Origin: Paracyclopina nana
Taxonomy: Eukaryota; Arthropoda; Copepoda; Cyclopoida; Cyclopettidae
Reading direction: 5' to 3'
Assembly (NCBI GenBank): GCA_019096065.1
Contig: JAGUCH010000003.1
Location: 62,001 to 126,000 of the forward strand
DNA length: 64,000 nucleotides
Position numbers and translations under genes: made by a program. The notes below the pieces were generated by a model. That model worked only from the letters and a program-made list of their open reading frames with translations. It searched no databases and was not told the DNA's origin. How positions within the stretch are numbered: the first letter of the stretch is position 1; every line of letters starts with the position of its first letter. This document shows, piece by piece, positions 4,239 through 40,024 of this stretch.

Positions 4239-4581
4239 CCAACTTGGTGCTTATCAGTCTTAGTCAAACAATTATTCATCATCACAGAAGAGGACTCGAC
4301 CAGCCACGATGACAATGACAAAAAGAGTCCAAAGAGGAAGCTGTATCCGTCGTCGGAAGCCTTTTGCAGAAGCGTTAACGCGAAGAAGCGGAGGAAGGAG
4401 AAGAAGCAGCTTGCCACCAGTGAGCAGTCCATGGACTCTTCGAGCCAGGAGAGCGAACTGGATGCTATTAATGATCTCGGCAAGGGCAAGCGCAAACGAT
4501 TTCAAAACGTGCAAATGGTCCCCATCGAGGAGATGAAGCGGAAAAAGTAGTCAACTTGGTGCTTATCAGTCTTAGTCAAAC
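3963..4581 (+). repeat. 312-bp tandem duplication of the last exon of the zinc-finger gene
   Basis: Bases 3963-4269 recur at 4275-4581 with an offset of 312 bp (104 codons) and about a dozen substitutions. The duplicated piece includes the coding end, the TAG stop and the start of the 3' UTR. The second copy keeps its reading frame to its own TAG at 4548-4550. Because 312 is a multiple of three and the spacer has no stop, copy 2 is in frame with copy 1 across the single TAG at 4236-4238. Confidence 0.9.
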
Positions 4582-4833
4582 ACTAATTGTTGTTGGAACA
4601 CAGTTTTAGAGCAGAGCTTTCCAATTTTATATAATAACGAATTTATCATCTCTCCTATTTATATACTAAACACTTTTCCGATCTCTCATCATTATATATA
4701 TCGTGTATACTAACTGTGCAATAATGTCACTTAGTTGTTAACTGGAATAAACTTCCAAAATACTTTCTACCCTAATTGTTCATTCGCTTACGTAATGGAA
4801 AGCTTTCCAAAAGCATTATTTTGTATTTATTCA
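4582..4833. other. AT-rich 3' flank between convergent genes
   Basis: No gene is seen. AATAAA at about 4745 (in GGAATAAAC) could be the polyadenylation signal of the zinc-finger gene. The stop of the opposing receptor-like gene lies just downstream at about 4834. Confidence 0.4.
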
Positions 4834-10900: not shown

Positions 10901-13900
10901 GGCGATAATACGTACACCTACAAGCACTACCTCGACGACCTTGAGAAGGCCTTTGTGGACGAGTTGGCCCAAGAGGCCGCCAGGGTGGCATACGACACCG
11001 CCGCGCAGGGTCCCCATGAATCCGTAATGACCTGGGCGGCACGCCTCAAGTCGCTCTACCTGAGGGCTTTCGCCAATGATGCACCGCGGTGCGCCAAGGT
11101 CGACAAGGATCCAGAGGTCATTAGGAAGTTCACTATCAATCTGCGGGACCCCCAGACACGCTGGCTGGTAATCGCCAGCAAATATGATACGCTGACGGAG
11201 GCCGCTTCCAATGCATCCTCCAAGGAGTGCCTGGTAGGATTAGCCGGCGGCAAGGCCAACCCCCTGGGGCAAGGGGGCATCATGCAAATCACCCAAGAGG
11301 GCACCCCAGACCAACCCGACGTCGCCAAGATCATCGCCGCTCTAGGTGACAAGGCTAACATGAGATGCTACGGCTGCGGCGGCTACGGCCATCTCAAGGC
11401 TCAATGCACCAACCAACGCCCAAACAGCCAACGAGGGCGAGGAGGATTCCGGGGCCGGGGACGTGGCGGCCGCGGGCGTGGCAATAACAATCCATACCAC
11501 GCCGCCCCGCCGGTCTCGCCCCAAGAATATAATAAATATCGCAACGCGGCCATCGCACATGTGGCCAGTGCCCCCGTGGACGCCTACACCTGGGAGGCGC
11601 CAAAAAACGGAGCCAGCCGGTCCTAAGGGACCGGCCATCAATGGAACCATCCATCACCTCACCAAACACGTTCACATCTGACAAGGCCCGATCATTCCTC
11701 GCCCATATTTCCAACATTAATAAATCATACGTATCTGAAGTTCCAATACGCCTCAACAATGTCAAATCAAGAGCACTCATCGACAGCGGTAATACGTGGA
11801 GGTCGGTCATCTCCTCCACGCTTGCAACCAAATTAGGGTTCACAAAAGCTCAACTTGCGCCCCTGATAGGAGAAACTGTCAACACAGCGGGCCAAAATCA
11901 ATCTCTAGAAATACTCGGCGAGGTACCAAAGCCATTGATGCTTCACATTGGCACCTACCCGCAACCTTTCCTATTTCGACCAGCTGTCATAGCTAACCTC
12001 ACCATGGACGTCAACCTGTCGGGGCCCTTCATGAAAGCCCACGACATCGACCAGCTACATAGTGCCAACTCGCTCCGCATTCGAGGACGAATGATCAAGT
12101 TGGCAGGGGGGACACTTAATGAAAATGACAGTCGCGCAATCAACGTCCATGCCGTCTACATACGGGGTGAAACCACAGTGGGGCCAATGTCTTGTTGCGC
12201 CATTCCCGCAAAAATCCCCACCTGGACCCGATCGCCGCACATCGATGGGATTGTTGAAGGATCAGGGGACTTCATGGAGGCCACTGAGCTGCACCCCTGG
12301 CAGCGAGCCCTCATCCGACCAGATGAAAAGGGCAACTGCGTTGTCGGGGTTATCAACACTACCGCAGAGCCTCTCATTATCCACAACAACACCCGGTACG
12401 GGCAAGTTGAAGGCTTGAGGCGAGTACCCACCGTGGCCAAGCTGGCAGCTGGAAGCTACGTAGCCAAGCTCGAGGGGGCCCAAACCCGGCCGCAGGGCCA
12501 GTACACGGCCGAGATGGCCCAAATCTTCATTCAAGAATTCGACCTAGAAAACAACGACATCTTGAGCACCCCTCAGCTAAAGGCTCGCACCTTGGCCCTG
12601 CTGCTACAATACCAGGACACCTTCAGCCTCGATGGGTCCTCGGGCCAAACCGACTTGGCCGAGCACCGCATCGATATCATCCCGGGTACTCAGCCCATTA
12701 ACATCCGCCGGCGGCCCATCAACCCGCACTTGCAGAAGTCGCTAGAAGAACAAGTCCAGAAATGGCTCCAGGAAGGCATCATCGTCCCTATTCAGTCGCC
12801 CTGGTGCGCGCCGCTGGTTCCGGTCACCAAGAAGAATGGGAAGACCCGGTGGTGCGTAGATTACCGCGCACTGAACAAGGTAACCATCGTCGACACGCAT
12901 CCCATTGGCGACATTCGGGATAACCTCAATCGGCTGGCGCACTCGCAAGTATTCTCTACCCTGGATACGACGGGAGCCTTTCACCACGTTCCCGTGAGGG
13001 CCGAGGACATCCCGAAGACAGCATTCGCAGCCAATCACTCAACGTACGCATTCGCCTACATGCCGTTCGGCCTCACCAACGCGCCCCGAACGTATGCGCG
13101 CCTCATCCAGCGGGTCTTGGAAGGGATCCCATACGACATTGCCTTGCCATACCTCGACGACGTGCTGATCCACAGCCGCGATGTAGAATCTCACTTCGGC
13201 CACCTGCAACGGGTACTGGACGCCCACCAACGGGCTGGCCTCAAACTGCAACCATCCAAATGCCACCTGTTCCGCCGTCGCATCACGTACCTGGGGCACG
13301 TCATCACTCCTGAGGGCCTCTCTGTGGTCCCCGAGTACATCGACGTGGTCAAGAAGTGGCCCCTGCCACGGACCCGGCGGCAGCTACGCATCTTCCTGGG
13401 AAAGTGCGGCTATTACCGGTCCTTCATCAAGGATTACCAGAAGGTCGCCAAGGCTTTGACGGACAAACTCAGCCGGGAAGAAGACGTTCCCGATACCGCC
13501 GAGTTCGAACCCCCGCTGGAATACGTTGCCGCTTTTGAGGAGCTCAAGAAGCGGCTGTGCATGGCGCCCATCCTGGCTTTCCCCGATTTTGAGAGCCCGC
13601 AGCCATTCATCCTGGATACCGACTGGAGCGGGGACAACCAGTGCGTGGGGGCCGTCCTGTCGCAAGTACAAGGGGGAAAGGAGCGAGTCATCCTCTTTGG
13701 GGCCAAGAAGCTGACACGGAGCCAGGCTAACTACTCCGCCACCCAAGGGGAACTCGCTGCCGTCATCATCTGGCTGCGCAAGTGGCGGTATTACCTCCAA
13801 TATCGGCCTTTCATCCTCCGCACGGACCATGCCGCTCTGCAATGGATTCGCACCATGGAGGAGCCCCGTAGCATGCTTGCCCGGTGGTTGGAGACCATCA

Positions 13901-16900
13901 GCCAGTTTGACTTCAAGGTCGTCCACCGGGCCGGAACCAAGCACGCCAACGCCGACGCCCTGAGTCGCGCCGAGCACGTCACCGACACCGAGGGCACGGA
14001 CGTGTCCAATGAGAGCTGCGCGGGCGTCCAAGCGATGATAGCCTCGGCCGAGGCTGCCCTGGACATGGCCAACCCCGCCGAGTGGATCCAGGGGCAAACA
14101 GAGGACGAGGATTTGCAACTGGTGCGGCGACTGATCAGCCAGCAGAGCCGACCGAGCCCTGAGCACAAAGAGGCCGCCTCCCATCGAGGCAAGATCCTGC
14201 TGGGCCTCTTTGACAGCCTCTACCTGGATGATCAAGGTCTCCTTCGGTACAAGAAGGAAGAAGGACAAGGCCGAGAGGCTCGCCACCTGGTCGTGGTTCC
14301 TCGATCCTCGGAAGAAGGGCTAGTGAGGCACATTCACGAAACCATGGGCCATCAGGGCAGAGACACCACTGTTGACCGGGTCTCCCGCCGGTTCTACATG
14401 CCTAACGCCACCCGAGTTGCCGCGGAGGTCGTGGCTACCTGCCGCACCTGCCAGAAACATCAGCCGGAGACCGCGGACCAACGACACTCACTACATTCTC
14501 ACCGGGCGGGCTATCCCTGGCAAAGGGTCGCCATCGACTACGTGGGGCCCCTCAAGCCCCCTGTCGACGGACATCAGTACCTCTTCACCGTACGCGACCT
14601 CTTCAGCCGATGGATCGAGGCTTTCCCATGCGCCTCGGCCAGCGCTGACACCGCCGTGAGGTTCCTGACCTCAGAGATCATCCCGCGATATGGGCTAATG
14701 GAGAACCTCCATTCTGACCGAGGCACCCACTTCACCGCCGCCCTGTTCCAGCAAGTAGCCAAAGCACTAGGTGTCCGGCACTCCACCACGCCGGCCTACA
14801 ACCCTAAGTCTAACTGGGTTGAACGGGCCCACCGGGACCTCAACGGCCTCCTGGCCAAACTGGTCTGCGGGCGACCATCCCGCTGGAAGGAAGTACTGCC
14901 CGTCGCCCTGTTCATCATGCGCACCACCAAATGCCGCATGACCGGCTACGCCCCGTATGAACTGCTATTTGGGCGGCCTGCCACCTCGCAACTGGACCTT
15001 CTGTTTGGAGACCCCCAACCACTTCTGAGAGAGGCCTCTGAGGCCGGGCAAGTTGCCCAGGCCCTCAAGGCTCGAATCCAGGCAGCCCATGAATGGGCCC
15101 GAAAGAACATGGCCACATCGATCAACCGACAAAGGATGGCCTACCACAAGGACAAAACGACGTATGTCCCGGGGCAACAGGTGTGGCTGTACACGCCCAC
15201 CGTGGCCCGCCACATCTCCAAGAAGCTCCAAACCTTCTGGTCAGGCCCCTGGACCATACTTAGGAAGGTCAACGACGTGACCTTCGAGATCTTGCCTGAC
15301 CCCTCATGGATTCGAAAGAAGTCCGAGGTCGTCTCGATCGACAGGCTCAAATTGTACCGGGCAACGGCGGAAGATGCCCACGATGGCAATGCCGGCAACC
15401 CGCCGCCAGCCAATGCAGATCTATCCATGCGAGGTGATGAGTTTGCTGAAGATGTTGCGCTCCCTTCCGATGATGAAGGCGACAGTGAGAACAACATCGA
15501 GCTCCCAACAACCGGCCACGAAACGGTATCAGCACCGTCACCTCGGGAAGCACGGTACCGCAAACGTAGGACCCAGGCGGAAATGCTGCAACAAGAAACA
15601 GCAGATTTCCTGGGGGCCGAAGTTGAAGTTGCCCATGGAACATCATCTCCTGCAACCAGAACCAGATCACGCTCAGGCCAAAAATCAGATCAACCAGATC
15701 CAGAGCTACCTCCGCTGGCACCAATCAATATGCCGCCATACAGACCCCTGGTAGCACAGCCTACGGTCACGATGCCACAATTCAGGCCACTGCCTGAAAT
15801 GAGCGATTCTGAAAATGATGATTTTGCTACACCAACAAATTCGAGCAGTGCTTCAAGCACAGAATAGTAGACGAATGAGCAGCACAACGAAAAGACGGCC
15901 GCAAAATTTTGGGGGCCCCCCTAAGTATACTTTGAAAATTCTGCGGCTTGAAAGAAAGCGCAATTAATAAAGAAATAATAGCAGCACAAACCGGCAGGTG
16001 TACAATAATGAGGCAGCATGTCAACACGTTTCCTTTACTCTCTTTTCCAGAAGCAATGTACTTCACAATACTGATGACGTTCACTCTACTACTCGAGGTG
16101 CCGAGCGCACAACCCCGGCCTCAACCTGCTCTACAGGAAGGAGGAGACGGACCACCTGAAGACCCGGCTGCCACCTTCACGGTGTTTGACTGCGAGTCAC
16201 CAAAATCAACCCACGAGAGCGTCGACTTGAATGACCCGGACGAATGCGATGATATCGGCACCACCTATGAATCGGCTGTCAACATCACCGTGCAGGTGCT
16301 GCAGACTGCGACGACCAAACCCGTCGCCGCCCACCGTTGCCACGTGACCCTGACCCGCGAAGTGACCAGATGCGGATTCGACAGCGTCAGCTACGGGACT
16401 CAGATCGTTGCTTACCACCAGCCCTATACCGTGTCGCCCCAGGCCTGCCGCAAGGCGGTGGAACGGGGCTACCTGATCGTCGAGGGCCAACGGGTGAATG
16501 TGACCCTCAACGTGCCCGCCAACCTGGCTTACTTCTCTCGAGGAGGCCTTGACGGAGACCACCGATGCAGGACCATGTCATTCAGCCACAACGGTGTCAT
16601 GTATCACCGCTCTTACGAGCAGACCCGGATCGACGCCCTTGTCACCGCTGTCTATGGAAAACTACACACCAGCTCTGGACGAGTGGTGTTCGATAATCAC
16701 ATCGTGGCCAATTACCGGGACAAGATCGTCCACGACACGCTCGAAGGCACCATGGTATGGGAAGCTCATGACACCACCTGCATGGAAGAGACCTCTGAGG
16801 TCTATCAAGGGCCCGCTTCACTATACCCGCACCAGAACTCCACCATGTTAGGTCAGGTGGGGGATCTGCTCCTGATTGCCCGCGAGGAGGAATCCAGGTA

Positions 16901-19900
16901 CGCAGGATTCGTCCTTAAGGGGGTCCAGTCGACCTGCCAGCGGCGGGTCTTCCGGACTCAGCTGAGGGACTTTGCAGTCGTCCTTCTCCGCCCGGGCGAA
17001 GCTCCCATCGCCGCGTCCACCCACCTGACGGAAGAGGTCCACCACGCTCACGTGCAGACCCAACTGGCTTTCCTGCACGCCGAGCACGCCCTGCATCTCG
17101 ACGACCGGTTCAAATTCCTGCAGGACCTCATCTGCAAGAATGAGCGGAGCATCCTGCACACCAAGCTGCAGGACATGGCCAGCGGTGGGTCCTCCTACGC
17201 CACGCTCGACTCCCACGGGCCCGGCCATTTGGTCACCCGGGCTGGGGCGGTTGCCTACATCACCAGCTGCTACCCGATGCAGGCCATGACGCGTGCCTTC
17301 CCTAACTGCACGCAGGAGATCCCCGTGTTGGTCGGGAACCATTCCCGGTTCGCGGATCCCCTCTCCTTCATCTTGGTGGACCGGCCCAGCATCATACCCT
17401 GCGACGCCATCACGCCTGTGAAGTGGAGGATCCAGGGACACTGGATGTGCGCTACTCCTAGCATCCACTCCTGCACGCCGCCATCGCAATTGGACCCCAC
17501 CTCCGATCGACAACATGGACGCCCCTACGAGATTGGTCGGGGCCTAGGAGGCGGTATCTACTCCGCCCAGCAGCAGGCCGAGCACGCCCTCTACCTGCAG
17601 CTGTACCACGCGCGCGAGGCCGTGGTCACCACTCTGACGTCCAACGTCCTGAGGAACAGCTTCGCACGCGGATCGGGGGCCACCACCCTCTGGTCCGAGG
17701 ACGACATCGACATGATGGTTGACCAGGTGGGCAACGCCCTCATCCCTTTCTTTTCGACCGTGGGGAAATACTGGAGCTACATGACCGGAGGTTTGGTGAT
17801 CCTGGGCCTCATCAAGATCATCCTAGGCTCTATCATCCGTATGATTATCCTGTATCGCCGCCGGGGGCTTGGGTGGTGGTTGATGTATGGCCTGTGGCAC
17901 ACTGCCTTCATGGCCGTCGAACTTCCCTGGCGCATGGTAGCCAACCTGGGTAACGACGGACCCTTGTTCCCTGGCGACGACGATGAGGATGATTGCCACC
18001 CGGATTTCCGGCGCCGACCCCGCTGGAAGCGAGACCACCGAGAACGAGCGGCCACCGAGCTCAGCGACTTCACCGTGCAAGATGGTTCGGAAACGGGAGA
18101 GAAAGACCCTTTGGATGCCCCGGACAAGTCGACATCGCCCCTCAAGGCTCTCCGCCGGTGGACGCGGCCCGACAAGGAGACCCAAGCATATCAGGACCTC
18201 CAGGCCCAGATCCGTACGATTCACCAGCAATACACGGATCTATACGGGGTCCTGCAGCAGACACTTCCCCAGGCACGCGTGGTTGACGCGAATGGGACCC
18301 AGCCCAGCGCTCCCGCCATGGAGGGTCCCCCTCGAGGCTCCCTGCTAGACCTGACTCAACCCGTCACTGCGAGGACACAGTAACCTTCTAGCGTGGGGTG
18401 ATGTAGCAGGGAGCGTGTCGGCCTACGGGTCGACCGCTCGCTGCGCGCGCTCGCCTCGGGCGCGCGGTAGTATAACGAGTAGTATAGTGTGATCATCAGT
18501 AAAGGAAATAAATTCACCGCATTGACACGTGTTGTCTGCGGCCCCAAGACTGACCTCTGCTAGCCTCCAGGCCCGTCCCCGCTTGACGTAGCCTAGATAC
18601 GAGTAGTGGCTTGATAAGTCACAGTAGTATATCTCGACCTACTACATAATTTTCAAAATAAATCTGGTTTTATCTAGATTTATTATATTTATAGATACAT
18701 TTATCAAAAAGTGGCAATTTGTGCAGGTGCCTTTCCCCAAAAGTGCCTTTTACCAGCAATTCATTTGACTTTACATTTGATCCTTATTTGCTCCAATTTC
18801 TCCAAGGGTTCATTGCGTCAACTTGTTTGAGGAGCAGGTGGCCTTCCAAGACAAGTTGGAGGCCGCTGAGTCGGCCTCGCAACAAAACGCGAGCCTCATT
18901 GCCTACTTGAATCGAACGCACTCGGCCTTGCGGGAGCTCGTTCAGCTGTCGGGATGCGGGTCGCAAATTTGCGACTTTTTGCACGACTCCTTGCCCGACA
19001 ATGGCGTCGACTTGACCAATCAGACCTTCGGCTACCTCGCCTTGCGTCGTGAGGTTCTCAGGTACTAAATTATAATTATTTATTTCGAGCTGAGGTACGT
19101 AAAAATAGGTCATTAAATAGCTGAGCGAGGAATTTAAAGTGGAAAAACCCGAGCGACACTTTATAAGCACGAACAAAGTGAACGCGTTAAAAAACGAGTG
19201 TTTTTTCATTTCAAAATCCGCAGTCAGCTATTTTAATGGCCCAATTTTACGTGCAAAAGTACAAAATATACAATTTTATATTCTGTATTATGATTTTTGA
19301 GTGTTTTAATGAAGTTACCCCGTGCCCTATAAAATACAGCTTGGTTTATAGTTGCAATTTCTATATCACTACAGCTCACATGTGCGAGCATCCTGTGGCT
19401 CGGGAGCAATAAAATAGATTTTTGGAGGGCGGGCCGAAGGCCCGCCCTCCACATTTCGCTGTGACCTATGTCGCTCCCCCGTTTGACACAGGAAACTGCA
19501 CAAGGATATCGACCAGGAAGTAAATTCTAGTCTAGAAAAAGACAGAAAAATGTTTGCCTCTTATGGGGTTTGAACCAGGGTCAGACAGTATGGCAATCAG
19601 ACACTCTGTCACTGAGCCATCTTAACATCACACAAAAAGTACAACTTTTGAGCAATTTCATTCAAAGAAAATGTTGAACAACATTTTGGGATTGCCCCAA
19701 CACCTAGCTAGCAAATTAAAATCATATGCTATGGCCACATTCAGCCCAGTCACTGGGCTGAATGCAACAGTGTTTGTTTTTCCATAGAGGGCATTTGAAA
19801 AATTGTCCCTCAAAAACTCAAATTGCAGTGCTTTCAAAAAAGTGACTGAAGCATATTATTGAGAGTTGGCAAAAGGTTTGCCCCCTCTCAATTTTTTTGT

Positions 19901-26023: not shown

Positions 26024-29000
26024 TCAGGCCACCACTCTGAAGGGTGAGCCGGGAATGTGTTCGTCGCCCCATTTGACAAAGATGATGTACTCGCCCTTCT
26101 CGTGGACCACGTAGTTGACGGAATACCGCTTGTCCCCTTGGTGCCGGATCACCACCTCGTCACAGGGCACGTCGGGGCCGTACACGCCCACGTAGAGCAC
26201 ATTGTTGCCCGCTCGTCCGCAGTCCACGGTGAAGCTGTTCTGCCTGCTGATCAGCGCCTGCTCCAGGCCTTTGCCGAGCACCTTGACCTGCAATGCAATT
26301 CATATAAAAATAATCGCGATCTCCCCATGAAGATCATATTTATACCTTGGTTGAGTCGGACTCGAGGCTCTTCTTGGGAGGAGGAGGCAGAATTTGGTTC
26401 CGGGCTCCTCCGGATTTGGAGAGCGACATGGAGGAGACCCTTTGCTCCGAGCATTGGTGTCGGATGTACGATGTCCTCTGCATTGTTTCCATCGTCATGG
26501 ACGACGACCTCGACTGCTCCTTCTGGAGCTGGCTTATGGCACGGTTATTCGAGACTAGGAGGCTCTCGCCGCCGACCATCACGGAGAACGGCGAGCCGCG
26601 CACGTTCTTCCCGTTGTACTTGACGGTCACGTAATACTTGCCCGGGGCCATGGGCGTGTAGGCGACCTCGTAGCCGTCCTCCACCTCGTTGCAGCTCAGG
26701 TCCACCTTGCTCGGGCCGTCGACGGTGATGGACAGGGTGCCGGCGCCCACGCCGCTCGTGTCGATGGTGAACTTGGAGGAGCGGCCAGTGGTGCCTCGCT
26801 CGATGCCCAGGCCTCGCACGGCCACGCTCGACGGATCATCCGAGAGAAGGAGGGCGCCGCGGACCTCGAGCTTGAACGGCGACCCGGGGATGTGGATGCC
26901 GTTGAGGCGCGCGTGCAAGTGGTGGATGCCCTCCTCCTTGGGCACGAAGCGGACCGTGTGCTCGCCGTCGCCGAGGGGAGTGATGAAGCAGTCGTCCTCG
27001 CGACCGCTCGGAGCCACAATCTTGCACTCCACGTCCCCGTCCGCGCCGTTCATGTTGAGCAGCATGGTTTGCGGAATGTCCAAGTTCACCGGGCCGTCGG
27101 CCATGTTCGACATTCGCACCCTCTCCGCGTCGTCAGCCGACGGCAAAATGTAGACCTGCAAAATGTTAAAAGAGTTGATCGGTAGGAGGTTGCGTGAGCG
27201 CATTTCAATTTTTCCGCGCATACCCTATTAAACTTCCGTCAAACCAGCTGAGCGAAAATACGCTCACGCTCAGCTAAAATCTGAGACCCCAACTTCTCGC
27301 CCAAGTCAGTTTTAGTGTTTTTTTCCTTTTTTTGGAGTGATAACAACGTGGAATTCGAAACTAATTCCAGTAAAAGTGCTTTTAAATTGGTTTGTTTACA
27401 TTTGCCGTAGCGACTGGCGAGAAGAAATTCCGCCAAATCGAGCGAGGTCAAGCTGGAATAATTAAAACGGAAAAGTGCGCTCAGCTAAAATGTGAATGCC
27501 AAACTTCTCGCTCAAGTCAGTTTTGGTGTTTTTTTTTCCATTTTTGAGTGATTTCAACGTGGAATTTAAAACTAATTCAAGAAATAGTGCTTTTAAATTG
27601 GTTTGTTTACAGTTGCCGAAGCGCGAAGAAATTCCGCCAAATCGAGCGAGGTCAAGATTCGTGTTGAAAAGCTTACCTTGTATGGCGATCCCGGGATGTG
27701 AGTGTCGTTGAAGCGAATGCCAACGGTGTACTCGCCAGGCTCCTCCACGACATAACTGACGTGGCAAGATCCGTCCTTTCTGTCCTTGAACTCGACCTCG
27801 GCCTTGGAGGGGCCTTCGACGGCGATGGCCAGGCTCCCGTAGCCCGCCTCGCGAGTCCACACGTTGAAGTCGGCCGGCTTTCCTTGGACTCCGCGCTCGA
27901 GGCCAGGTCCTCCGGCATGAACCCGGTGAGCGCCGCCGTCCTGGAGAGGTCCGACCGTGAACTGGAATGGCGAGCCGGGGATGTCCACCTCCTTGTACAT
28001 CACGCTCACCGTGTGAACGCCCAGCTCGTATGGCACAAAGTTGACGGCGTACAGGCCGTCCTCGAGCTCCACCACAATCGCGGTTTCGACCTTTAACAAT
28101 ATTTGTCCAAGGTAAATATCTCTTTGTTCCTTTGTGATTCAAAATACCTTGAACCCGCTCAAAATTAATTGAAAATTATCGGCTAGATATTTCTGTATCT
28201 AAGTAAAATTCCAATAACAAGCTTACTTTCCTAATATTTTTTTCTAAAATATGCACATTTGGAAGCTGCAATTAGGGAATTATTTCCAATCATGCAACCT
28301 AGAACATATTATTAAGAAAAATTCTTTGACTAAGCAAAGTAATTTATGAAAAACTATTTTTTTTTTAAAAAAATGAGACACACTCTTTTTATCCTTGCTC
28401 TAGAAATAGCATTTCTATGTTTAATTTTGAGTTATGTCAGTTGCATGTTGCTTACCTTTCCTGTGGGTGAAGTCACAGATGCTTTCAAATCGGTCGGCTT
28501 GATGCCAGGCATCTTGAAGGTGAGCCTGCATTGGCTACCGACTTCAGTCACCGGCACAGCCTCCCTCATTCGGTTGATTTTCTCGGTTTGTCGCTCAGTT
28601 CCTTGGCCGCTGACAGCAACTGCAAATGGCGATCCTGGCGCGTGTTGGTCCGCAAACTTGAGGTTCACTATGTACAGCCCTGGTTCCGACGGCTTGTACG
28701 ACACATCCAGTGTGCCGTCCTCGTTGTCCTTGCATTTGATTTCGGCCTTCGAGGGCCCCTCCACGCTCAGCGAAAGGCCTCCGTATCCGGCGTTCTTCGT
28801 GTCCACGGTGAACAGGTTGTCCTCGTGAGTTTTGCCCTCGCGGAGCGCAGACCCACTCACCTTCACCCTGCTCGCATCTCCAACATCCTCCGGATTCACC
28901 ATGATTTTGAACGGAGAATTGGTGATGTGCTTGCCATTGCGTTTGACAGACACCAGATGCTCTCCCACCTCCCTTGGCGTAAAGGAGATGCCTGTGTTGC

Positions 29001-32000
29001 CCTTGGGCAGTTTCTTGAGGAAGCAAGGCTCCTCGCTGCCCATGGGGGACACGATGTAGGCATTGAGCGAGCGAAGGTCATAGTCGGAAATATTTTCAGG
29101 CAGAGACAGCTCGGATGCTGAGCCCACTGAGATGGCATTGCGCTTTTTGCCCTCGCCTGTCACCTTGCAGGTGAAGGGTGAGCCCTCAATGTGCTGATCC
29201 GCGAAGCGAGCTGAAATCTTGTATTCACCAGGGGCAGTTGGCAAGTAGGAGACATTCACGGTTCCGTCCTTGTTGTCAATGCAGTTGATGTCAGCCTTGC
29301 TGGGGCCTTCCACAGCCAGGGCAAGACCGCCTGCACCTGCGCCTTTAGTTGAGATGACAAAGTTGGCTGGATCGCCGCAAACTCCATGAGTGAGGCCAGG
29401 TCCATAAGCGTACACTTTGCCTTCGTCATTGGGACTTGCAAAGAATTTGTAGGGTGAGCCTTGGACATGCTCACCATTGTACCTGACATCTAGGTTGTGA
29501 GCGCCTTGCTCAGTGGGCTGGTAGAAAACGCCTACGCTGCCGTTTCCGTTATCCTCAACGTGGGGAAGGTGCATTGCATTGCTCGGTGTTCTGACTTGGG
29601 CCGTCACATTGCCACCCGTTGATGGAATTGGAATGTTGGAGAGTTCAACGGGGTGCAAGTTGTTGCCATTCTTGCCATAGTTCCCATTGATGTCATCCAG
29701 GCCCTTGCGACCGTAGGCATCTGAGGAGCCCTTTCTGGATTTGTCATGCGACCCTCTTCGACCACCATGGCGGCTACTTCCGCCGCGACGGCCGTTGTCA
29801 TTCAGGTCATCTGCTGAGTCATCACTTGAGCTATCTCTCAATCCATGGCTGCCAGGTCCTCTCCGGCCGCCTTTTCGGTGTCTTGAATCTTGGTTGTCTG
29901 CCGAATCCAAGGGGTCTTTCGAGCCAGTCCTTGATCGACCATATGGATAGCTATCCAGACCTGGATACGATTTTCCACTAGAGTCCTTCCGCTGGTCATC
30001 ACCATGGATAGAGTCCAAGTTAGAGCCTTTGCGGCTGCCATATTTATCTTTGGATCCCTTTCGGCTGGTGTCATCATAGGCTTGTGATCCTCTTCTTGAA
30101 TGTTCGTCTTCTGCATCAAATGCTGAGCCTCGCCTTAGTGGATCATCAAGAAGTGAGTCACCTGGTCCATACCTTGACCTGCCATTAGGATCCTGCTCTA
30201 ATCTCTTCTGCTGGCTTCCAGAGTGAGGGTCATCAGGATCATATCTTGACTGTGGATGATTAGGGTCAAAGTCCTTGTCCGACCCCCTACTCCTTGCATT
30301 GGCATTAGAGCCCAGATGAGATCCTTTGCGATTTTTGTGGTCATCAAATCTTGCATAAGGATCGTTGGGTTCAAATTCAGATCCTCTCCTGTAGCTAGGG
30401 TCATCAGGATCCAGGCTGGACACTTTTCGATGGCCAGGATAATTTGAGTCGAGACCTGAACCTCTTCGGTAGCTAGGATCACTTGGATCATATCCTGATC
30501 CTTTTCTGCTGCCAAGATCATTTGAGTCTCTGCCTGATCCTCTCCTGCTACTTTTGGGGTCATTGGGGTCAAACCGAGAGTCTCGTCGACTTGCAGGATC
30601 ATTGTCATCTAGTCCAGAACCTCTCTTGCTGTGATAATCTCCTGATCCTTTTCTGAAGCTTGGGTCATCAGAATCAAGCCTTGAACCTGGTCGATAGTTA
30701 GGGTCATTTGCATCCAGACTCGAGCCTGGTCTGTGATTGGGGTCACTAGAGTCAAGTCCTGATCCCCTCCTGTAGCTGGAATTGGTTGGATCAAGTCCTT
30801 TTTTGTTCAATGGGTCATCATCAGAGGCTAGCCTTTTCCTGTAATTTGGATCATCAGAATCCAAGCCTTTTCGGTGAGTGGGGTCACCTGAGTCATGACC
30901 CGATCCCTTTCTGTAATTAGAATCATCAGATTCAAGGGCTGATCCTCTTCTTTGGCGTGGATCATTTTGGTCAAGCCTTGAGCCTCTTCTGGTACTCGAA
31001 TCCTTTGAGCCCTTCCTGGAGCTCAGTTCATCATTTGATTCAATTCCTGATCCTCTTCTGGTGTTAATGTCATTTGTATCATATCCTGACCCTCTTCTTC
31101 TGTTAGCATCATTGGGGTCATAACTTGATCCTTTCCTGTGAGTAGGGTCATCTGAGTCCAGGCCAGAACCTCTTCTGTTGTTAGGGTCATTTGAGCCATA
31201 TCCTGACCCTCTCCTCCGGCTGGGATCATTAGGATCATAATTTGATCCTCTCCTGTAATTGGGGTCATCTGAGTCCAGACCAGAGCCTCTTCTGCTATTC
31301 GGATCATTTGGATCAAATCCTGATCCTTTTCTTCCATGAGGATCATTGGGATCATAGCTTGATCCTTTCCTGTAGCTTGGATCATCTGAGTCTAGACCTG
31401 AGCCTTTTCTGTTGTGTGGATCGTTAGGATCAAATCCAGTCCCTCTTCCTCCATCAGGATCATTAGGATTATAACTTGATCGTTTCCTGTAATTTGGGTC
31501 ATCTGAGTCTAGGCCAGAACCTTTTCTGTTGTTTGGGTCATATCCTGAGCTTCTTCTTCCATTAGGATCACTTGGATCAAAGTTTGATCCTTTCCTGCAG
31601 TGTGGATCATCTGTGTCTACACCTGGCCCTCTACCTCTGCTTGGGCCATTTGGATCTAAACTTGATCCTTTCCTGAAGTTAGGGTCCTCTGAGCCATAGC
31701 CTGATCCTCTTCTGTTGCTTGGGTCATTTGGATCTGAACTTGATCCTTTCCTGTAGTTAGGGTCCTCTGAGCCATAGCCTGATCCTCTTCTGTTGCTTGG
31801 GTCATTTGGATCTGAACTTGATCCTTTCCTGTAGTTGGGGTCATCTGTGCCAAGCCCTGACCCCCTTCTGTAGCTTGGGTCATTTTGATTTTCCCCTGAT
31901 AGCTTTCTTCTGTTGGGATCATTTTGATCATACCCTGAGCCTTTTCTGTGGCTTGGATCATTTGGACCAAGCCCAGAGCCTCTTCTATTGAAGGGGTCAT

Positions 32001-35000
32001 TAGGATCAACCCCTGACAGCTTTCTACCGTCAGGATCATTTGGATCATACCCTGATGGCTTTCTGGTATTGGCATCACTTGGATCATACCCTGATGGCTT
32101 TCTGGCATCGGGATCATTTGGATCATACCCTGAGCCTTTTCTGTAGCTTGGATCATTAGGACCAAGCCCAGAGCCTCTTCTACTGCTTGGGTCATTTGAG
32201 TCTAACACTGAGCCCGTCCTGTTGGGGTCATCAAGTCCTGATCCTCTTCTGCTATTAGGATCATTGGGATCCAGATGAGAGCCCCTTCTAAAGTTGGGGT
32301 CACTTGAATCCAATCCAGAGCCTCGTCTATTACTGTTGTCATTAGGATCCATTTTTGAGCCTTTTCGGCTATGCAGTTCATTGAGGCTAGATTTCTTAGC
32401 TAGGTTAGGGTCATTTGAATCTGCAAGGCCAGTGGGATCATGTTGGCCAGTACCACTTATGTTGTAATTGCCATCGTCTGCTCTGGATGCCTTTCTTGAA
32501 CTAGCATCGGCAGAGCTAGCTAAAGAGTCCTTTCTGTTATTTGGATCAAGTTTTGAGCCTCTTCTGGTAAGGTCATCAGAGCCCATTCTTCCCTCTGAGC
32601 CGTCTTGCCCAAACCTTGAGTCACGTCTACCATCTGGCCCAATGTCTGAGTCCTCATCTAAATTGTCTCTTGAGCCCTTTCGGTTGTTTGCACCACTTGG
32701 ATCGTAACTAGAATCCTTCCCGGAATTGATGTCATCAGCATGCAATTTTGATCTATTGGGGTCACTTGAACCCAATCTTGAAGTTCTCCGACCAGATGCA
32801 TCATCCAGCTCAGAGCCTCTCCTATTGGAGCCTGAATCACCTGCTCTGTTCTGTTCTCTTCCACCAAGATTGGATCCTCTTCGGGCTCCATCGGAATCAC
32901 TGAGCCCAAAGTCATCATCATCATGAGCTGAAGATCCCTTTCTTCCATAAGGATCAGAATCTCCGAATTTAGATCCCTTCCGGCTGCCATCTTCGGATCC
33001 TTTGCGGCTTTTGTCTTCACCTAACCTTGATCCTGCAAGGCTTGCTGAGCCTTTCCTGCTAGCATCCTCGGAAGATTTCTTTCTTCCAAAAATGTCTGCA
33101 TCGTCTCCCGATCCCTTGCGTCCATCTCTTGAGCCTTGGCCTTTTCCTTGATTGCGGCCATCAGCTGAATTTCCAGACTTTAGACCTTGGTCAGCACTGC
33201 CATCATCACCAAGGCCACTTGAACGACGGCCAGCACCTCCTTCTTGGCCAAGTAGGTCTCGACTAGCTTGACGGCTGCCTAGGTTGCGGCCATATGGTGT
33301 ATCTTGACTGCTAGACTTGCGACTGCCAAGTCCAGAGCTTTCGCTGCTTGATTTTCTGCTTGCTCCAGAGGAGTCGCCGAGGGACCCTCCGCTTCCTTTC
33401 CTTCTGGATGGGTCGCCATCAGTGCCGCTCCGGTTGTATTTTCCTCCAAGACTTCCGTCATTGTCATCATCATTGTCATCTTTTTTGCCATCCAAGGCTC
33501 CTGGCAGAGCATTGCGAATCAGCTCTGACACATCTCTTGGACCTGAGAAGACACCAACATTAGTTATGGTCATGTTACTGCCATACTATCTGTTACCTTT
33601 GCCCTCTTCGGCGATGCTCTGTCTTTGAAGGCCAGTACCGTTTTTGGAGTAGGATCGCTCGGGACTGATTGCGCTGCTGCCCTTTCGCGATCCTAGACCA
33701 TCACTGATGGCAGCACTGACAACGTCTTCCATGTTGGGGTTGCATGTCATGAGGAAGGGACTTCCTGGAATGTCAACTCCCGCATATCTCACGGCGATCT
33801 GCAGAGAATGTACATAATCAAATTCATGCTACAGAAGCAAGCAAGTGTTGTTCATTACCTCATAGGGATCTCCGACGGGTGGCGGCACATAGGAAACTTC
33901 GTGAGTTCCATCTCCTTTGTCCATGATAACGGGCTGGCTGAATGCCTTTTTGCGATCGCTGCTGCTTCCCTTTCTGCCTCCTGCTGATGACATTTTCCCG
34001 GACTTCTTCCCTGCCTTGTCATCGCGTCCGCGTTTTCCGGACTCATTCAGGTCGTCTTTGTTGGCACCCAAAGCATCGGAGCTGCCTCGTCGCGACAAGC
34101 TATCTCCCCTAGCTCGCAGGGCAGCCAGGCCTTTGCCCTCCTTATTGCCAATGCCAAATCCATCATCCTCTTCATCATCAGTTAACAGCTCTGAGGCTTT
34201 TCGTGAACCAAGTCCTCGTTGGTCGTTGTCAATGTCTTTTCTAGCTCCTTGACCGGACTTTGAGCCTTTTCTGGCATCGGATCCATCTAGTCGGGAGCCT
34301 CTCCTTGTTTTCCCAAGATCAGCATTGTCATCATCATTGTTGTCGTCACTTTGACCATCACCAATGATAACCTCAAGTGGAGCATCACCTGTGTCAGATG
34401 CGTCCACAGTGAAGGAGGTTGGCTTGCCAGGGAAAATGCTCTCTGGCTCCAGGCCAGGTCCATAGGCTTTGACCTTTCGTGGATCCACTTTGGGCTTGCC
34501 ATCGATGGTGGTCACCGGCACCTGGAATGGCGACCCTGGAATGTGCTCATCATCAAATTTGATGGCAATGTCATAGTCGCCCTCCTCAACAGGGACATAT
34601 TCGACTGTGCAGGTTCCGTCCTTGTTGTCAGTGCAGTTCATCTCGGCCTCGGAGGGGCCTTCGACGGCAATGCCGAGGCCTCCTGTGCCCGCATTTCTTG
34701 TCTCAATGGTGAATGTGTTGACTTGGTCGACAATGCCTCTCTCCAGACCGTCTCCGTATGCTTTGACCTTTTGAGGATTGCATCCTCTCACCGCAGTGAC
34801 AGGGAAGGGGGAGTCCGGAAGGGGTGTTCCATCGTAGCGTAAGTCCACCTCGTGGTCTCCCTCCTCTGTGGGAATGTAGCTGACTTGGAAGGGACCGTCA
34901 GGGCCGAGCTTGCTCACGTCGGCCTCCACGGGGTTGCCATCTGGTCCGGAAATGTCGCATTGAACCTGTGATTTCAGGTTGCTTGGCAGCTCGGACGTGT

Positions 35001-38000
35001 CGACAACAAAGTCATTAGGGCAGTCGACGAATGCCTCAGGCTCAAAGTCGATGAGCTTGATCTTGGTCAAGTCGACCGCGGGCTTTATGTCCAATTTGAT
35101 TGGGCTCTGCGGCACCTCGGTGTCATCGAGGGCAATGACGATGGACTGGGGTCCTGCGATTTGGGCCTCATAGGTCACGGTGTAGGTGTCATCGCCGTTG
35201 TCGGTGATCGAGACGGGAACGGTTTTGCGTTTGGCGCTCGTTATGTTCACGGTGACGTCACCAGGGCCAGACTTGGAGCAGTCCACGGTGAATTCGACTG
35301 GGCAGCCAGCGCGGACGCCTGGCTCAATGCCGGGCCCATAAACTTCAACCTTGAAGCAGCACATTAATTTTTTATATCAAATCTAGGCCTTTTTTTACTA
35401 AGTGTGCTGAGACTTGAGAGACCCTGTCCTAATTTTTCTATAACTGATATTGCCACCTTAAAATGTTTCTAATTACACTTTTTTATATCTCTATTAGTTA
35501 TGACGCTGTATCATTTTTTGTTGAGCAGCGTTATCCTTATAAAATTGGCAAGCTTTTAGGCATAAAATCAGGGCACTTAATAGGTGGATCCCAAAACATT
35601 AGGCAGCTAAGCTTAAGCAAAAGCAAAGTAACTTTGATTGCGAATTTCTCAGCAACTTCTCAACTGATTCGAACCAAAATTGGTAGGATTCATTAGAGTT
35701 GCCTTATAATTGTTCATGCCTAATTCAGCCCAAATCCGAGGTCACATTCAAAAGATTGGTTTTAAGCAAAGCAAAGCTGGGCTAAGCAAAGGGAAATTGG
35801 GTACCACTTAGCAGCCTCAGATTTGCACTAAATTTGACAACAACAATTATAAGGTTACTCTGATGAATCCTACCAATTTTGGTTCGAATCAGATGAGAAG
35901 TTGCTGAGAAATATGCAATCTAAGTTACCTTGCTTTTGCTTAAGCTTAGCTGGCTATGTTGTGGGATCCGCCTAATGATTATAAACCAAAGATTTGTCAG
36001 AATTACCACATATTTTTTTTTTGCGAAAACTAAAAACTTAAATCAAGTTCGTATTGCTTTGATTTGAATTGGCGTTTGCCATTTTTTCTCGCCGAAGAAA
36101 CTGCTGCGTTCTATGCTTCATAAACTACTCTGATTTTATGGAGCAACAGGTCTGAATTGCTTGACTACATGGAGAACATTTGAAATCAGGTCATTTTTTG
36201 TGCTAAAAGATGAAAATGAGCTAGGTAACAATTGTATATCCAAAGAGTACTTGAATGTTTGGATACATTTGTGATGGCTAGTTATCATTTGTTAGTTACT
36301 TGGCCAAAATATCATTATTTATATGAAAATTGCACCTCTTTTATTTTATTTTAATTTGCACTCACCAGCGAAGGGTCATTGGGGTTGTCGTTCAAGACTC
36401 GGAATGGACTTCCTGGGACTGCAACGCCTCCGAAATTCACGAACACCGTTTGCTTGTGCTGCTTGGCTCTGGGTGTGTAGAAGCACTCGAACACCGTTTC
36501 CGAGACCTTGCTGATTCGGGGCTCAAATTGGCCGAGGTCGTCAACCAGATAAATTTCCAGTGGGGCGCTGCTTCCCGCGTCGGAAATGTCCACCGTGAAG
36601 TGCGTCTCCTCTTTAGGGTTGACTCCGTTTTCGACTCCGGGTCCGAAGACTCGGACCTTGTCCGGGTCGTAATCGGTTGCGGGGACGATTTGCGCCATGT
36701 ATGGCGACCCGGGAATGTCTTCCTTATCACATAGGATGTGGACCGCGTATTCGCCCTCGGCCGTGGGGATGTATTCGACCTCGGCCGATCCGTCCCCATT
36801 GTCCTATGAGTATGAAGTAGGTTTCCAATTTCGTTCATTTCGACCAATTCAAATTTACCTTGCAGTTGATTTTGGCTTGCGACGGTCCCTGGATGCTGAA
36901 GCCCAAGGCTCCGGTCTCCCCGCAAGTGTCCACTGTGAACTTTGCCGGCTTGCTCACAATGCCACCCTTGAGGCCCGGGCCGTAGGCCTTGATCTTCGAC
37001 ACCTTGTGCTTGCCAATGGTCACCTCGAACGGCGACCTGGGGATCTCGACGTTGGCAAAGGTGATCATGATGATGTGTCGCCCGTCCCGCTTGGGCGTGT
37101 ATGTGAACTCCGTGGTGGTGGCGTCGATGGACCTAGAAATGTAGTCGAGGTCGATTCCGCCGGGGCCGATGATCTTGACGCCGACCTTGCCCTCGCCGGC
37201 GCCCTCGGTGTACACCTTAAAGTCCACCGTTTCGTTCACCCGGATTCCGGTGGGCTGGAGGCCGCGGCCGTTGGCCCACACCTTGGTGGGTATGCTGGCC
37301 GGGGACACGCGCACTCCGAACGGGCTCAAGGGGATGGGGTTGCCCGCGAAGAACACGTTAACGGAATGGAGGCCTAGGAGGGTGGCGACGTACTCGCACT
37401 TGTACGTGTCTGCCTCGCTTGGGTGCGGGCTGATTTGGATGGGCACCGAGTCCTTCTTGCCCTTGGGGTCGAGTATGATGACATCGGGCGACCCTTTGCC
37501 CGCGCCCTGGGCGAAGATGTCAAAGTGGGTGGGCCTGTTGATGATTACGCCCTCGGGCAGGAGTCCCGGTCCGGAGGCTGTCACCTTGCTCGCATCCCCG
37601 GCAAAGCCCTCAACGTTGACGTTGTATGGCGAGTCCGGGATCTCGCGGTTGGACCAGGTGATGCTCACAACGTAGTCGCCCTCTTCCTCGGGGAAGTAAC
37701 TGCAGCTGTAGGTGGCCTTTCTATCGTTGTTGAACACAATCTCGCATTCGAGCTCCTTTCCAGACTCCTGTTGGACAACCTTGACCGCCAGCTCTCCGTC
37801 GCCGGCGCCGAACGTCTCCACGGTGAAGTTGGCCGGCGCCTTGGCCACCAGACCCTTGGGCTCGAGGCCGGGTCCGTAGGCGCGGACCTTGGTGGCGTCC
37901 GTCTTCTTTCGCAGCGGGGCGCCGGGCTTGAGCTTGGCATGCGGGAACTGCGACAAGTAGGTCATCATGGACTGCTCGTCCACGTTGGGGTTGACGATCT

Positions 38001-40024
38001 CCTCGGGCTCGAGGAGCTTGGGCACGTTGAGCCACTTGTCGGCCAGGTCCATGGCCTCCCTTGCGTTTTCCACGGGGCGCTTGGGGTCCCAGTTCTCCCA
38101 GTCGGGACAGAGGCCGGGCGCAACGTTGTCGACGAGGGCGCCTATGGCCTTGCCGTCGTTGAAGTCTGTGGTGAAGTTGTTGAGCATGGGCACCTTGTCC
38201 TTCACCCAGTCCATGAGCCGTTGCTTGGGCGTCTTCTCTGCGGCCGCCCCGCCGCCGCCCAGGGGTGGCCCGTCCCACATGGGCATGGAGATGGCGTAGT
38301 GGAGGATGAGCGTCCAAATGAGGCCCAGGATCAGCTTGAGCTTGCAGTCGACAATGTCCGTGGAGTCGATGTTGACCAGTGTGATGCCCTCCCTCTCGAG
38401 GAACTCGAGGGCGATGCTGACATTTTCCAGCTTCTGCGATCTGAATGGGTAAGAAGAATTCCATATTTCCATTTTTCAATTTTTTCTATAACCTATAGTG
38501 GCAGTAACTTTGATTTTTAAAGGCTGTTCATGGCAATGCCCACCTTGAATGTATACAGTCTGTCCCAGCGATTTCTGTAGACTTTGAAATCAAAAGTTCG
38601 TGTTGAAACTTTTGGAAATACCAAACACCTGGATACCGTTGGAAAGTTTGAAACTTAAGCCATCTTTTTTAGTTTTGAGATTTTTAAAAAGTATTTATTC
38701 AAATTTTGATTCAAACCACAAAATTGATAGTTACTCAAAATACACGCCCATTTTCCCTGATTTTATTTGATGAAAAGACACTTTGACGAAAAAAATATTT
38801 TTTCAAGTTCACTTAAAATTGGTTAAACATTTGATCTTCATAAACAAATAATCCCAAAGATGTGTTTCTTAAAACACTAATTTTGAAATTTTTTTAGTAG
38901 GCAGTGGCCTTATTGTCTTTTTTCTTTATAATGAAAAATATCCTTTCCAATTGTCTAGCTTTCTGATGAGCCAGCACGGTGCTGCAAGATTTTTTTTCAT
39001 GAAAAAATGTCAAAAAATGCCCGGGATTGGCTTAGCTGAAAATTTGGTCAAAAAAGGCCAGTTTCTGCAAATTTGCTTTTTGCGGAAAAAAATTAAGGGT
39101 ACCTCAGGCAAATTAAGTTTTCTCATTTCTTTACTTTTAATTTCTTTTGTCCATTGAATCAATAATAGATGGCCAAAGATTCAAGCTTTCCAATGATATC
39201 CATAGTGTCTAATATTTCCCGAATTTGCAACACACACTTTTGATTTCCAAGTGTGCAGAAATCAACGGGACAGTCTGTATAGCATTCTTCAATATTTAGT
39301 AAGCAAGTCTCTAAAATACTCAGGAAGGGAGATAATCAAGCTCAAAGTAGGTTAGGTTGATTTTCGCTCGTATCTCTTTTCCTGTGTATCTCATTTCTTA
39401 TAAAATAATGAAAGTTAGATACTTTGATTTAGGAGACGGGCAATGACGCTCACCAAAGCTGAGCTGCGTGTTTTTTGCCATTTTATGGTATTTTAAGCAT
39501 TGCTTTCTTTCTTGTCAGCATGCTTAATTTCCAGTAAATTGACTAGAAAGTTATCTGAGCTTTCTAATGGTACCAATGCAATTTGAGACATGAGCTTTTG
39601 GCCCTGATTAGGCCTACCTGAAGTTGGGCCGCTTGTTGTGCTTGGGCATTTTCTTGTTGGCGAGCACCTCGATGAGCGCGATGAGCTTGAGTCCATCGCT
39701 GAAGTCGGTGGCGAGGTCGTCGATGGCCTTGTCGACGGTCTTGAGGTGCTCGTTGGCCCAGCGGGTGAAGGTGTTTTGCTGGATGCGCTTCCACTCCGCG
39801 TCGGCCTTCAGCTCTCGCTCCGCGTTGGCCATGGCCACCTCGCGGTCGAAGGAGTCGTCGGTGTCGCTGCTGTGCAGGGCCTCGGAGCCTCTGCGGGCCA
39901 GGAAGTTGAGGGCGGGGGACTCGTCGCCTTGCAACTGAGCCACGGCTCGCTCGCGAGCTCCCAGCCGCGGGCTCCCGATCGAGCCGCCGTAGCCGGGGCG
40001 AGGGCTCGCGCTGCGGTGATGCAT
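26024..40024 (-). CDS. filamin (actin cross-linker) with giant Ser/Asp/Arg insert
   Basis: Exons from the start: 40024-39618, 38440-36859, 36803-36366, 35349-33859, 33798-33597, 33542-28456, 28090-27677, 27155-26346 and 26287-26024. All are GT-AG and in phase, giving 3,564 residues. An N-terminal actin-binding domain of two CH domains (about residues 78-185, with [14 protein letters not shown], and 205-305, with [12 protein letters not shown]) is followed by about 18 Ig-like filamin repeats with the usual YGPGL, VEGPSKA and GSPF signatures. A hinge rich in Ser/Gln precedes the last, dimerising repeat (exon 9). Repeat 9 contains an acidic/RKGS insert of ~150 residues (exon 4). Between repeats 9 and 10 an insert of about 1,300 residues fills most of exon 6; ordinary filamins have 2,200-2,800 residues in total. 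This is the orthologue type of Drosophila cheerio. It links F-actin to membrane receptors and senses tension. A 4-codon uORF precedes the start. Confidence 0.95.
27270..27655. repeat. direct repeat of ~185 bp in filamin intron 7
   Basis: 27270-27455 and 27478-27655 share AACTTCTCGC, AAGTCAGTTTT, AACGTGGAATT, GCTTTTAAATTGGTTTGTTT and GAAATTCCGCCAAATCGAG. It is noncoding and diverged by roughly 15-20%. Confidence 0.75.
28142..28455. other. filamin intron 6
   Basis: AT-rich intron (28091-28455) between exons 6 and 7. No gene, RNA or repeat is recognised. Confidence 0.6.
30190..33000 (-). repeat. 39-bp coding minisatellite in filamin exon 6
   Basis: On the minus strand about 55 or more units of 39 bp encode 13-residue repeats of type D-P-N-D-P-N-x-R-[RK]-G-S-G-x. 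Some blocks show a 78-bp higher-order unit (two near-identical copies at about 31680-31835). Toward 33500 the units become irregular but keep the [RK]-[RK]-G-S motif. The whole region stays in frame within one exon. Confidence 0.9.
35583..35985. mobile_element. ~400-bp palindromic (MITE-like) element in filamin intron 3
   Basis: Arms of about 140 bp (35583-35720 and 35845-35985) are imperfect reverse complements, sharing CTAAGCTTAAGCAAAAGCAA and GATTCGAACCAAAATTGGTA with their complements. The rest of this 1-kb intron holds no gene. Confidence 0.7.
38441..39617. other. filamin intron 1 (coding-exon numbering)
   Basis: 1.2 kb of AT-rich sequence separates the two halves of the first CH domain. 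I see no gene or clear repeat; small open frames here lack coding character. Confidence 0.5.

Follow-up and report, generated by a model that had tools for sequence, protein, structure and literature searches.

A filamin of the copepod Paracyclopina nana with a greatly enlarged hinge 1 rich in predicted kinase sites

What is a segment of some 1,300 residues, filled with copies of a kinase consensus, doing in the middle of a filamin? The question is raised by a stretch of 64,000 nucleotides from the copepod Paracyclopina nana (contig JAGUCH010000003.1, positions 62,001 to 126,000; the whole 64-kb stretch is called the window below), for which an earlier note, made by a model from the letters alone, had described such a segment between the immunoglobulin-like (Ig) repeats of a filamin rod. 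Filamins tie actin filaments together and are textbook mechanosensors, with hinge 1 believed to influence the elasticity of the network, and those of vertebrates possess 24 Ig repeats, with Ig14 and Ig15 preceding hinge 1. Going by the anatomy of the predicted protein, the segment is almost certainly hinge 1, grown to 1,342 residues, with the equivalents of FLNA Ig14 and Ig15 gone. That it forms a disordered, neutral spring which basophilic kinases could swell, its phosphorylation being predicted, we regard as plausible if a little short of probable.

All parts of the gene lie on the minus strand of the window, where nine coding exons, separated by introns of 1177, 55, 1016, 60, 54, 365, 521 and 58 nt, give a filamin of 3,564 residues with GT-AG joins, consistent phases and a sole, terminal stop (Table 1). 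The start codon was set at the first ATG of the open frame; the 5' end is putative and further 5' exons are possible. Calponin homology (CH) domains and filamin repeats were detected by Pfam across the seven scanned pieces of the gene, the CH family (PF00307) with E 3.5e-9 in exon A and E 1.2e-26 (two stretches) in the frame of exon B, and residues 20-330 show 77% identity over 99% to the filamin P0056 (EukProt Tk06988). Judged by its domains, the gene is a canonical filamin (cher/FLNA orthologue) of a copepod-type crustacean. The exon carrying most of the repeat, exon F (5,087 nt), has the acceptor CTTCTCAG and the donor GTAAGC; it contains no stop in the coding frame compared to 36 and 199 in the remaining two and is joined in frame to the eight other exons. 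Its origin from a separate gene or as a pseudo-exon is ruled out by the single open frame and the correct flanking phases, and the earlier note was right in placing the repeat exon at exactly these borders, in frame within a filamin and between Ig repeats, as open frame and phases agree on both sides. With a length of 2 mod 3, exon F, which also encodes the rod from Ig16 up to the beginning of Ig20, would shift the frame if simply skipped, and removal of the hinge in this way appears unlikely. A scan for internal in-phase acceptors with a polypyrimidine fraction of at least 0.70 gave none, which excludes nothing as six of the eight real acceptors also stay below 0.70.

In order to locate the segment within the rod, its Ig repeats were paired with those of other filamins. 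The window filamin shows 19 filamin-profile matches, two of which are halves of one Ig, and thus has 18 Igs, compared to 22 in eight of ten arthropods and 20 in Daphnia. Its C-terminal nine correspond one by one to Ig16-Ig24 of Monodelphis FLNA (P0055), eight of them reciprocally, with Ig17 matching back elsewhere. In the prawn filamin P0021 all pairings are reciprocal, Ig1-6 of the window corresponding to prawn Ig1-6, Ig7 to prawn 9, Ig8 to prawn 10 and the nine Igs behind the hinge to prawn 14-22 in order; prawn Ig7, 8, 12 and 13 have no reciprocal partner, and the best matches of prawn Ig12 and 13 are FLNA Ig14 and Ig15. A tblastn search with Ig14/15 of three arthropods gave, among the best four matches per query, only Igs already assigned. 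The split Ig before the hinge is without reciprocal pairing, its halves having been scored apart; the pairing of its second half with P0056 Ig9, also the best match of prawn 11 in that protein, led us to take it as prawn 11 (FLNA Ig13). As window Ig16-17 moreover align to the solved structure of FLNA Ig16-17 (PDB 2k7p, E 2.8e-54), this alignment and the order of the Igs identify the segment as an enlarged hinge 1 with two Igs absent before it. A second, ordinary filamin gene elsewhere was rejected, since six stretches around the best profile matches outside the window were only distant, with at most 53% identity over short pieces; this check covered the best candidates, a weak one (C1 near 7.12 Mb, E 1.1e-5) being left aside. 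One outside match is, judged by eye, a TRIM/NHL-like protein. At C2:17112000-17131800 (L009, L010) a distant gene or cluster with many filamin-type Ig repeats is present without a listed match to the actin-binding-domain probe, and this probe matches in L012 with 44% identity.

Hinge disorder is predicted to begin one exon upstream of exon F, at 33735. The hinge holds 71 R-[RK]-x-[ST] sites, whereas 1,000 residue shuffles contain 5.0 on average and never more than 13; three such sites are found in the rest of the protein outside the hinge and insert 1 (Table 1), and the full-length count in eight other filamins is 0 to 2. Ahead of Ig16, exon F encodes 53 R[RK]GS and 70 R[RK]xS, and 36 of the 69 spacings between the latter are exactly 13 residues. 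The unit is degenerate, roughly [GS]-[LYF]-D-[PS]-[ND]-D-P-x-x-R-[RK]-G-S, with a literal D-P-N-D-P occurring 11 times in exon F, and the regular array makes up about half of the segment (residues ~1746-2441). In 42 hinge sites an acidic residue stands at +3 (R[RK]xSxx[DE]), which is the CK2 pattern. A 154-residue probe from the array gave nine matches in this genome at E <= 0.001, all nine inside exon F, which rules out a repeat that is widespread in the genome. With 233 K/R and 226 D/E the hinge has a net charge of +7 and a fraction of charged residues (FCR) of 0.342. Only 0.2% of 500 shuffles matched the evenness of its net charge per 52-residue stretch (4.8% for P0056), and opposite charges are patchier at the 5-residue scale (0.0959 vs 0.0605 +- 0.0045 in shuffles). 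The mean hydropathy of 0.308, against a charge-hydropathy boundary of 0.415, predicts disorder, and AlphaFold returned a 235-residue array piece, run as a single sequence, with a predicted local distance difference test (pLDDT) score of 46.8, a predicted template modelling (pTM) score of 0.14 and no solenoid. On these values a solenoid or other folded repeat was rejected, with the caveat of the single sequence; from both predictions we infer disorder in vivo. The earlier description holds for a real, in-frame repeat with a dense basophilic R-[RK]-x-S consensus, a frequent 13-residue spacing and predicted disorder; its length of about 1,300 residues becomes 1,342 with a start one exon earlier, its unit is degenerate, and its acidic character has to be given up in view of the balanced charges. 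It did not mention that the segment lies at hinge 1, that two Ig domains are lacking there, or that a smaller insert of like sequence splits the Ig before it.

To see how unusual this hinge is, we surveyed 213 sequences (212 database proteins, including isoforms and near-duplicates, and the window filamin), a sample made of the 120 matches listed by each of two protein searches and four of a third rather than of all filamins. The length of the linker directly before Ig16, measured between domains, could be obtained for 209; the four dropped were presumably P0121-P0124, which have no Ig before Ig16. The median is 34 residues, and only four hinges exceed 150 residues: those of the window (1,337 by this measure, 1,342 by the predicted disorder borders), P0056 (774) and two lancelet proteins (650 and 616). 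At least three R-[RK]-x-[ST] sites in the hinge are found in two of the 209, the window filamin (71) and P0056 (12). Hinge 1 is thus also swollen in another lineage, the lancelet proteins P0067 and P0098, whose 616-650 hinge residues look like heptads by eye; in three proteins of that genus (P0087, P0104, P0105) the hinge spans 51-74. No account of a filamin with a phospho-repeat or C2-carrying hinge was found in searches of open-licence PMC papers.

P0056 is probably a copepod protein as well, from Tigriopus kingsejongensis, going by its Tk prefix and MAKER-style name (the use of MAKER is described in PMC5467011). It has 2,892 residues and, like the window filamin, 18 Igs, no equivalents of Ig14/15 and a long neutral hinge (777 residues), and both hinges start alike with SRK[GS]S...YSKNGTG[LV]QR[QK]S. 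It differs in its repeats (GRP[ILV]D 15 times), in the number of R[RK]x[ST] sites (12) and in the unbroken Ig13 equivalent. As the two hinges are only marginally similar, with E 0.003 at the start and less significant matches elsewhere, their common origin rests on position and on the YSKNGTG stretch. A search with the window hinge, in which 2,320 candidates were scored, gave four proteins, P0121-P0124 (E 3e-29 to 1e-7), and P0056 was not among them. These metagenomic filamins, whose stored sequences contain no Ig ahead of Ig16, carry 6, 8, 8 and 8 Pfam stretches of C2 domains alternating with R-[RK]-G-S / DPNDP-like linkers, followed by Ig16. They have 57, 44, 39 and 33 R[RK]x[ST] per protein, and their linkers have net charges of +9, 0, +4 and +1 over 939, 1018, 885 and 802 residues. 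The window hinge scores 108 bits against them, compared to at most 30.8 for residue shuffles and 49.7 for motif-keeping shuffles (200 each), so the similarity exceeds composition. P0121 continues to the end of Ig24 and reads through Ig16-24 without the introns of the window, which makes it probably a spliced transcript, and P0122 enters an apparent intron in Ig17. One of the P0121-P0124 clusters holds 27 member sequences, so the source animal may be common.

In a maximum-likelihood (ML) tree of Ig16-20 (451 columns, 22 sequences, LG+G4) the window filamin, P0056, P0121, P0123 and P0124 form one clade with an ultrafast bootstrap (UFBoot) of 100, in which P0121, P0123 and P0124 are sister to window plus P0056; P0122 was left out because its Ig part ends in Ig17. 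A FastTree tree of the actin-binding domain and the C-terminal half also joins window and P0056 (support 1.0). Their placement among arthropods differs, near Daphnia and hexapods in the ML tree (support 85-86 around) and on the outgroup side in the FastTree tree, which is probably long-branch attraction. Going by these related filamins, hinge 1 was rebuilt across a whole clade. The earlier note knew of no filamin described with such an insert; P0056 with its long hinge and P0121-P0124 with their R-[RK]-G-S linkers, all placed before Ig16, show that the window filamin is not unique.

The C2 domains themselves suggest a calcium or membrane input at hinge 1 in the relatives carrying them. Their nearest solved structures are myoferlin, dysferlin, E-Syt2 and synaptotagmins. 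Loop 1 shows D-x5-D-P-[YF] in 29 of 31 C2 matches, the other two being fragments of 24 and 76 residues, and loop 3 shows D-x-D in 30 of 31 (28 by the pattern D-x-D-x3-G-x-[DN], whose last residue is N in four matches, and two in P0122 by eye), the exception being the 24-residue fragment. These features also speak for a different function of the hinge, namely a membrane electrostatic switch in the manner known for MARCKS, in which R-[RK] patches, together with C2 domains in the relatives, would hold the hinge on acidic membranes until phosphorylation releases it. For the window protein this appears quite improbable: its hinge has no C2 domain, and over its 1,342 residues acidic patches balance the basic ones (net +7), so that membrane affinity should be weak. 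C2 remnants in the hinges of window or P0056 were rejected, as a C2 profile built from P0121-P0124 found none in the window protein, in P0056 or in the six frames of the window. A P0121 C2 domain gave 13 matches in this genome, the best with 36% identity (E 3e-9) and none near the filamin gene. A scan of viral contigs with P0121 found nothing.

The strong tandem structure of the array, with periods of 39, 78 and 117 nt, would also fit a neutral expansion, in which a length-tolerant hinge 1 that only has to be soluble, disordered and neutral was filled by a 39-nt unit, the kinase motif being incidental. The different repeat types of window and P0056, the marginal match of their hinges and the lack of P0056 among the matches of the hinge search point the same way, as do the lancelet hinges, which are enlarged with an altogether different sequence. 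We nevertheless consider it unlikely, because P0056 and P0121-P0124 also have R-[RK]-x-S, in units that are otherwise different, because at least three hinge sites were seen in no measured filamin except the window and P0056, and because of the substitution pattern between units. For the latter, units were anchored on D-P and not on the kinase motif, and R-[RK]-x-S was found to be kept in 32 of 43. The ratio of nonsynonymous to synonymous differences (pN/pS) over 40 units is 0.466 in the true frame compared to 0.859 and 0.923 out of frame, and 0.445 (bootstrap 0.29-0.62) at R, [RK] and S compared to 0.69 at the spacer positions not used as anchors; these values are rough, as synonymous differences come close to saturation and recombination may homogenise the units, which counts against our interpretation. 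By these ratios the protein sequence of the repeat is held to some degree.

How could such a hinge work? At rest it would be a neutral polyampholyte, in which acidic patches (D-P-N-D-P etc., about -2 to -3) alternate with +2 patches of R-[RK]-G-S every ~13 residues. Phosphorylation of R-[RK]-G-S by a basophilic Ser/Thr kinase (PKA, PKG, CaMK or similar) would add -2 and cancel the +2 patch, and the acidic patches left over would let the chain swell and soften when at least roughly one site in four is modified. The linker would then act as an entropic spring that can be tuned, placed between the rod that binds actin and the rod that binds partners and dimerises. Full phosphorylation is calculated to change the net charge from +7 to -135 and the sequence charge decoration (SCD) from -0.41 to +120. 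Partial phosphorylation gives net -63 and SCD +24 at 50% of sites, net -27 and SCD +3.2 at 25%, and SCD -0.87 at 10%, a series that predicts a threshold, with little happening at first and swelling setting in at around 25%. Taking 0.36 nm per residue, the hinge would reach a length of 483 nm when fully stretched and have a coil size of about 20-38 nm. The idea of the earlier note that charge is switched in bulk, lengthening or stiffening the cross-linker, agrees with the calculated charge change and swelling, but not as regards a stiffened acidic spring: because a neutral chain would become strongly negative, a swelling and softening spring is to be expected. The mechanical effect and its sign are predictions throughout.

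Several points weigh against this mechanism. The resting SCD of -0.41 is less negative than in shuffles (-3.14 +- 1.92), describing a loose neutral chain that is not specially cohesive, and the slight fall of SCD at 10% phosphorylation means that light phosphorylation is predicted to do little. Whole-hinge charge neutrality alone is weak evidence, each hinge lying within about 0.5 standard deviations (SD) of zero. The charges of P0056 are not patchy (0.0512 vs 0.0515 in shuffles), its sites are sparser (12 in 777 residues) and its calculated SCD reaches only +5 at full phosphorylation. PKA prefers a hydrophobic residue after Ser, and in the hinge this residue is mostly G, S or similar. The sites are known as consensus only, which is not proof of phosphorylation, and low confidence is expected from AlphaFold for one sequence regardless of fold. 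An early single-molecule test of PKA on titin, as given in part of PMC5498327, left the persistence length unchanged, and phosphorylation-incompetent neurofilament sidearms are described in part of PMC8067762 as without clear difference. Because of the loose resting chain and the weak effect of light phosphorylation, we propose the kinase-driven spring mechanism as such only tentatively.

Known systems share some of these features. As in FLNA, FLNB, FLNC and Drosophila cher, the hinge is a flexible linker directly before Ig16. Passages in PMC7216277 and PMC11346442 describe a calpain site in vertebrate hinge 1, the removal of FLNB and FLNC hinge 1 by splicing in myogenesis, and the position of the filamin PKA site S2152 in Ig20. 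Unlike an ordinary hinge 1, that of the window has 1,342 instead of a median of 34 residues (n=209), lacks Ig14/Ig15 before it and carries 71 basophilic sites, and unlike the skippable vertebrate hinge exon it is encoded together with Ig16-20 in one exon. P0121-P0124 share its R-[RK]-G-S linkers before Ig16, with up to eight hinge C2 domains where the window has none. The titin N2B unique sequence (N2Bus) is, according to sections of PMC5498327, a disordered spring beside Ig domains and a PKA/PKG target, through which kinases mostly reduce passive tension, PKG having roughly doubled the persistence length; it differs in having 572 residues, an acidic composition and, as given there, a handful of mapped sites. 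The likeness is one by analogy. The KSP sidearms of neurofilaments, with a proline-directed motif, are side arms and not a force-bearing link, which the window hinge would be. They repeat a single kinase motif many times along a disordered chain, for which charge-driven extension is proposed in part of PMC8067762.

Many copies of a near-identical short motif could also form a multivalent docking scaffold, in which R-[RK]-G-pS recruits 14-3-3 or another reader and the length of the hinge presents copies instead of acting as a spring. We consider this improbable; the repeat unit is presumably unlike classical 14-3-3 motifs. That filamin inserts can dock partners is seen for the 82-residue insert in FLNC Ig20, which binds myotilin (part of PMC7216277).

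The coordinates of the gene and its parts are collected in Table 1. Further features of the window lie on its plus strand or without assigned strand outside the filamin gene. At 52428-59888 (+) one open frame of 2,487 codons encodes a giant IQ-repeat protein with 24 IQ calmodulin-binding stretches (Pfam E 4e-157) and tandem units of 237 and 186 nt. The block at 10640-18380 (+) resembles a long terminal repeat (LTR) retroelement: it has a PNMA-type gag open reading frame (ORF), a pol ORF (reverse transcriptase, RNase H, integrase) and, apart from these, an ORF of 815 codons that matches a family of viral fusion glycoproteins (Monjiviricetes_fusion, E 4e-72). At 3955-4582 a 312-nt unit in tandem duplication (95% matches) overlaps the open frame 3816-4235.

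Table 1. Positions in the window of the filamin gene and its parts, from the N-terminal to the C-terminal end.
Feature	Positions	Strand	Basis
Filamin gene, 9 coding exons	26024..40024	-	40024-39618, 38440-36859, 36803-36366, 35349-33859, 33798-33597, 33542-28456, 28090-27677, 27155-26346, 26287-26024
N-terminal RRGS site (LARRGSEA), common to P0056	39884..39895	-	seen in both sequences
CH1-CH2 actin-binding domain, one intron within, borders approximate	37912..39817	-	Pfam CH PF00307
First part of FLNA Ig13-equivalent Ig	34363..34485	-	filamin profile; assigned by order and P0056 Ig9
Insert 1, hinge-like stretch of 140 residues splitting this Ig (net +3; 5 R[RK]x[ST] sites)	33943..34362	-	Ig unbroken in P0056
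Second part of FLNA Ig13-equivalent Ig, 60-nt intron within	33742..33942	-	filamin profile
Expanded hinge 1, residues 1328-2669, 1,342 aa, predicted disordered, 54-nt intron within	29656..33735	-	position just before Ig16 equivalent
SRKGS... (12 protein letters not shown) near hinge start, resembling P0056 SRKSS...YSKNGTGVQRKS at the equivalent place	33616..33690	-	hinge starts match, E 0.003
Exon F, most of hinge and Ig16 to start of Ig20	28456..33542	-	single exon, open frame, Pfam, Ig matching
Core of 13-residue (39-nt) unit array	30340..32427	-	tandem-repeat analysis; higher-order periods 78 and 117 nt
Ig16 equivalent	29437..29655	-	reciprocal best match to Ig16 of Monodelphis FLNA P0055
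C-terminal Ig24 (dimerisation repeat in vertebrates), split by 58-nt intron	26027..26357	-	reciprocal best match to Ig24 of P0055

In summary, the hinge of the window filamin may be one form of a long neutral chain that took the place of two Ig domains in copepod-type crustaceans and serves them as a signalling and mechanical module, in which kinases would loosen the cross-linker, C2 domains (up to eight in one lineage) would tie it to membranes by calcium, and the window protein would be the pure phospho-spring form; this we offer more as a suggestion than as a result. In vertebrates hinge 1 is short, so its length, charge and flexibility are hard to separate. With about forty times the median length, two Igs gone and one kinase motif present about 70 times, the hinge described here makes the tuning of a cross-linker's spring by phosphorylation directly testable on one purified fragment.

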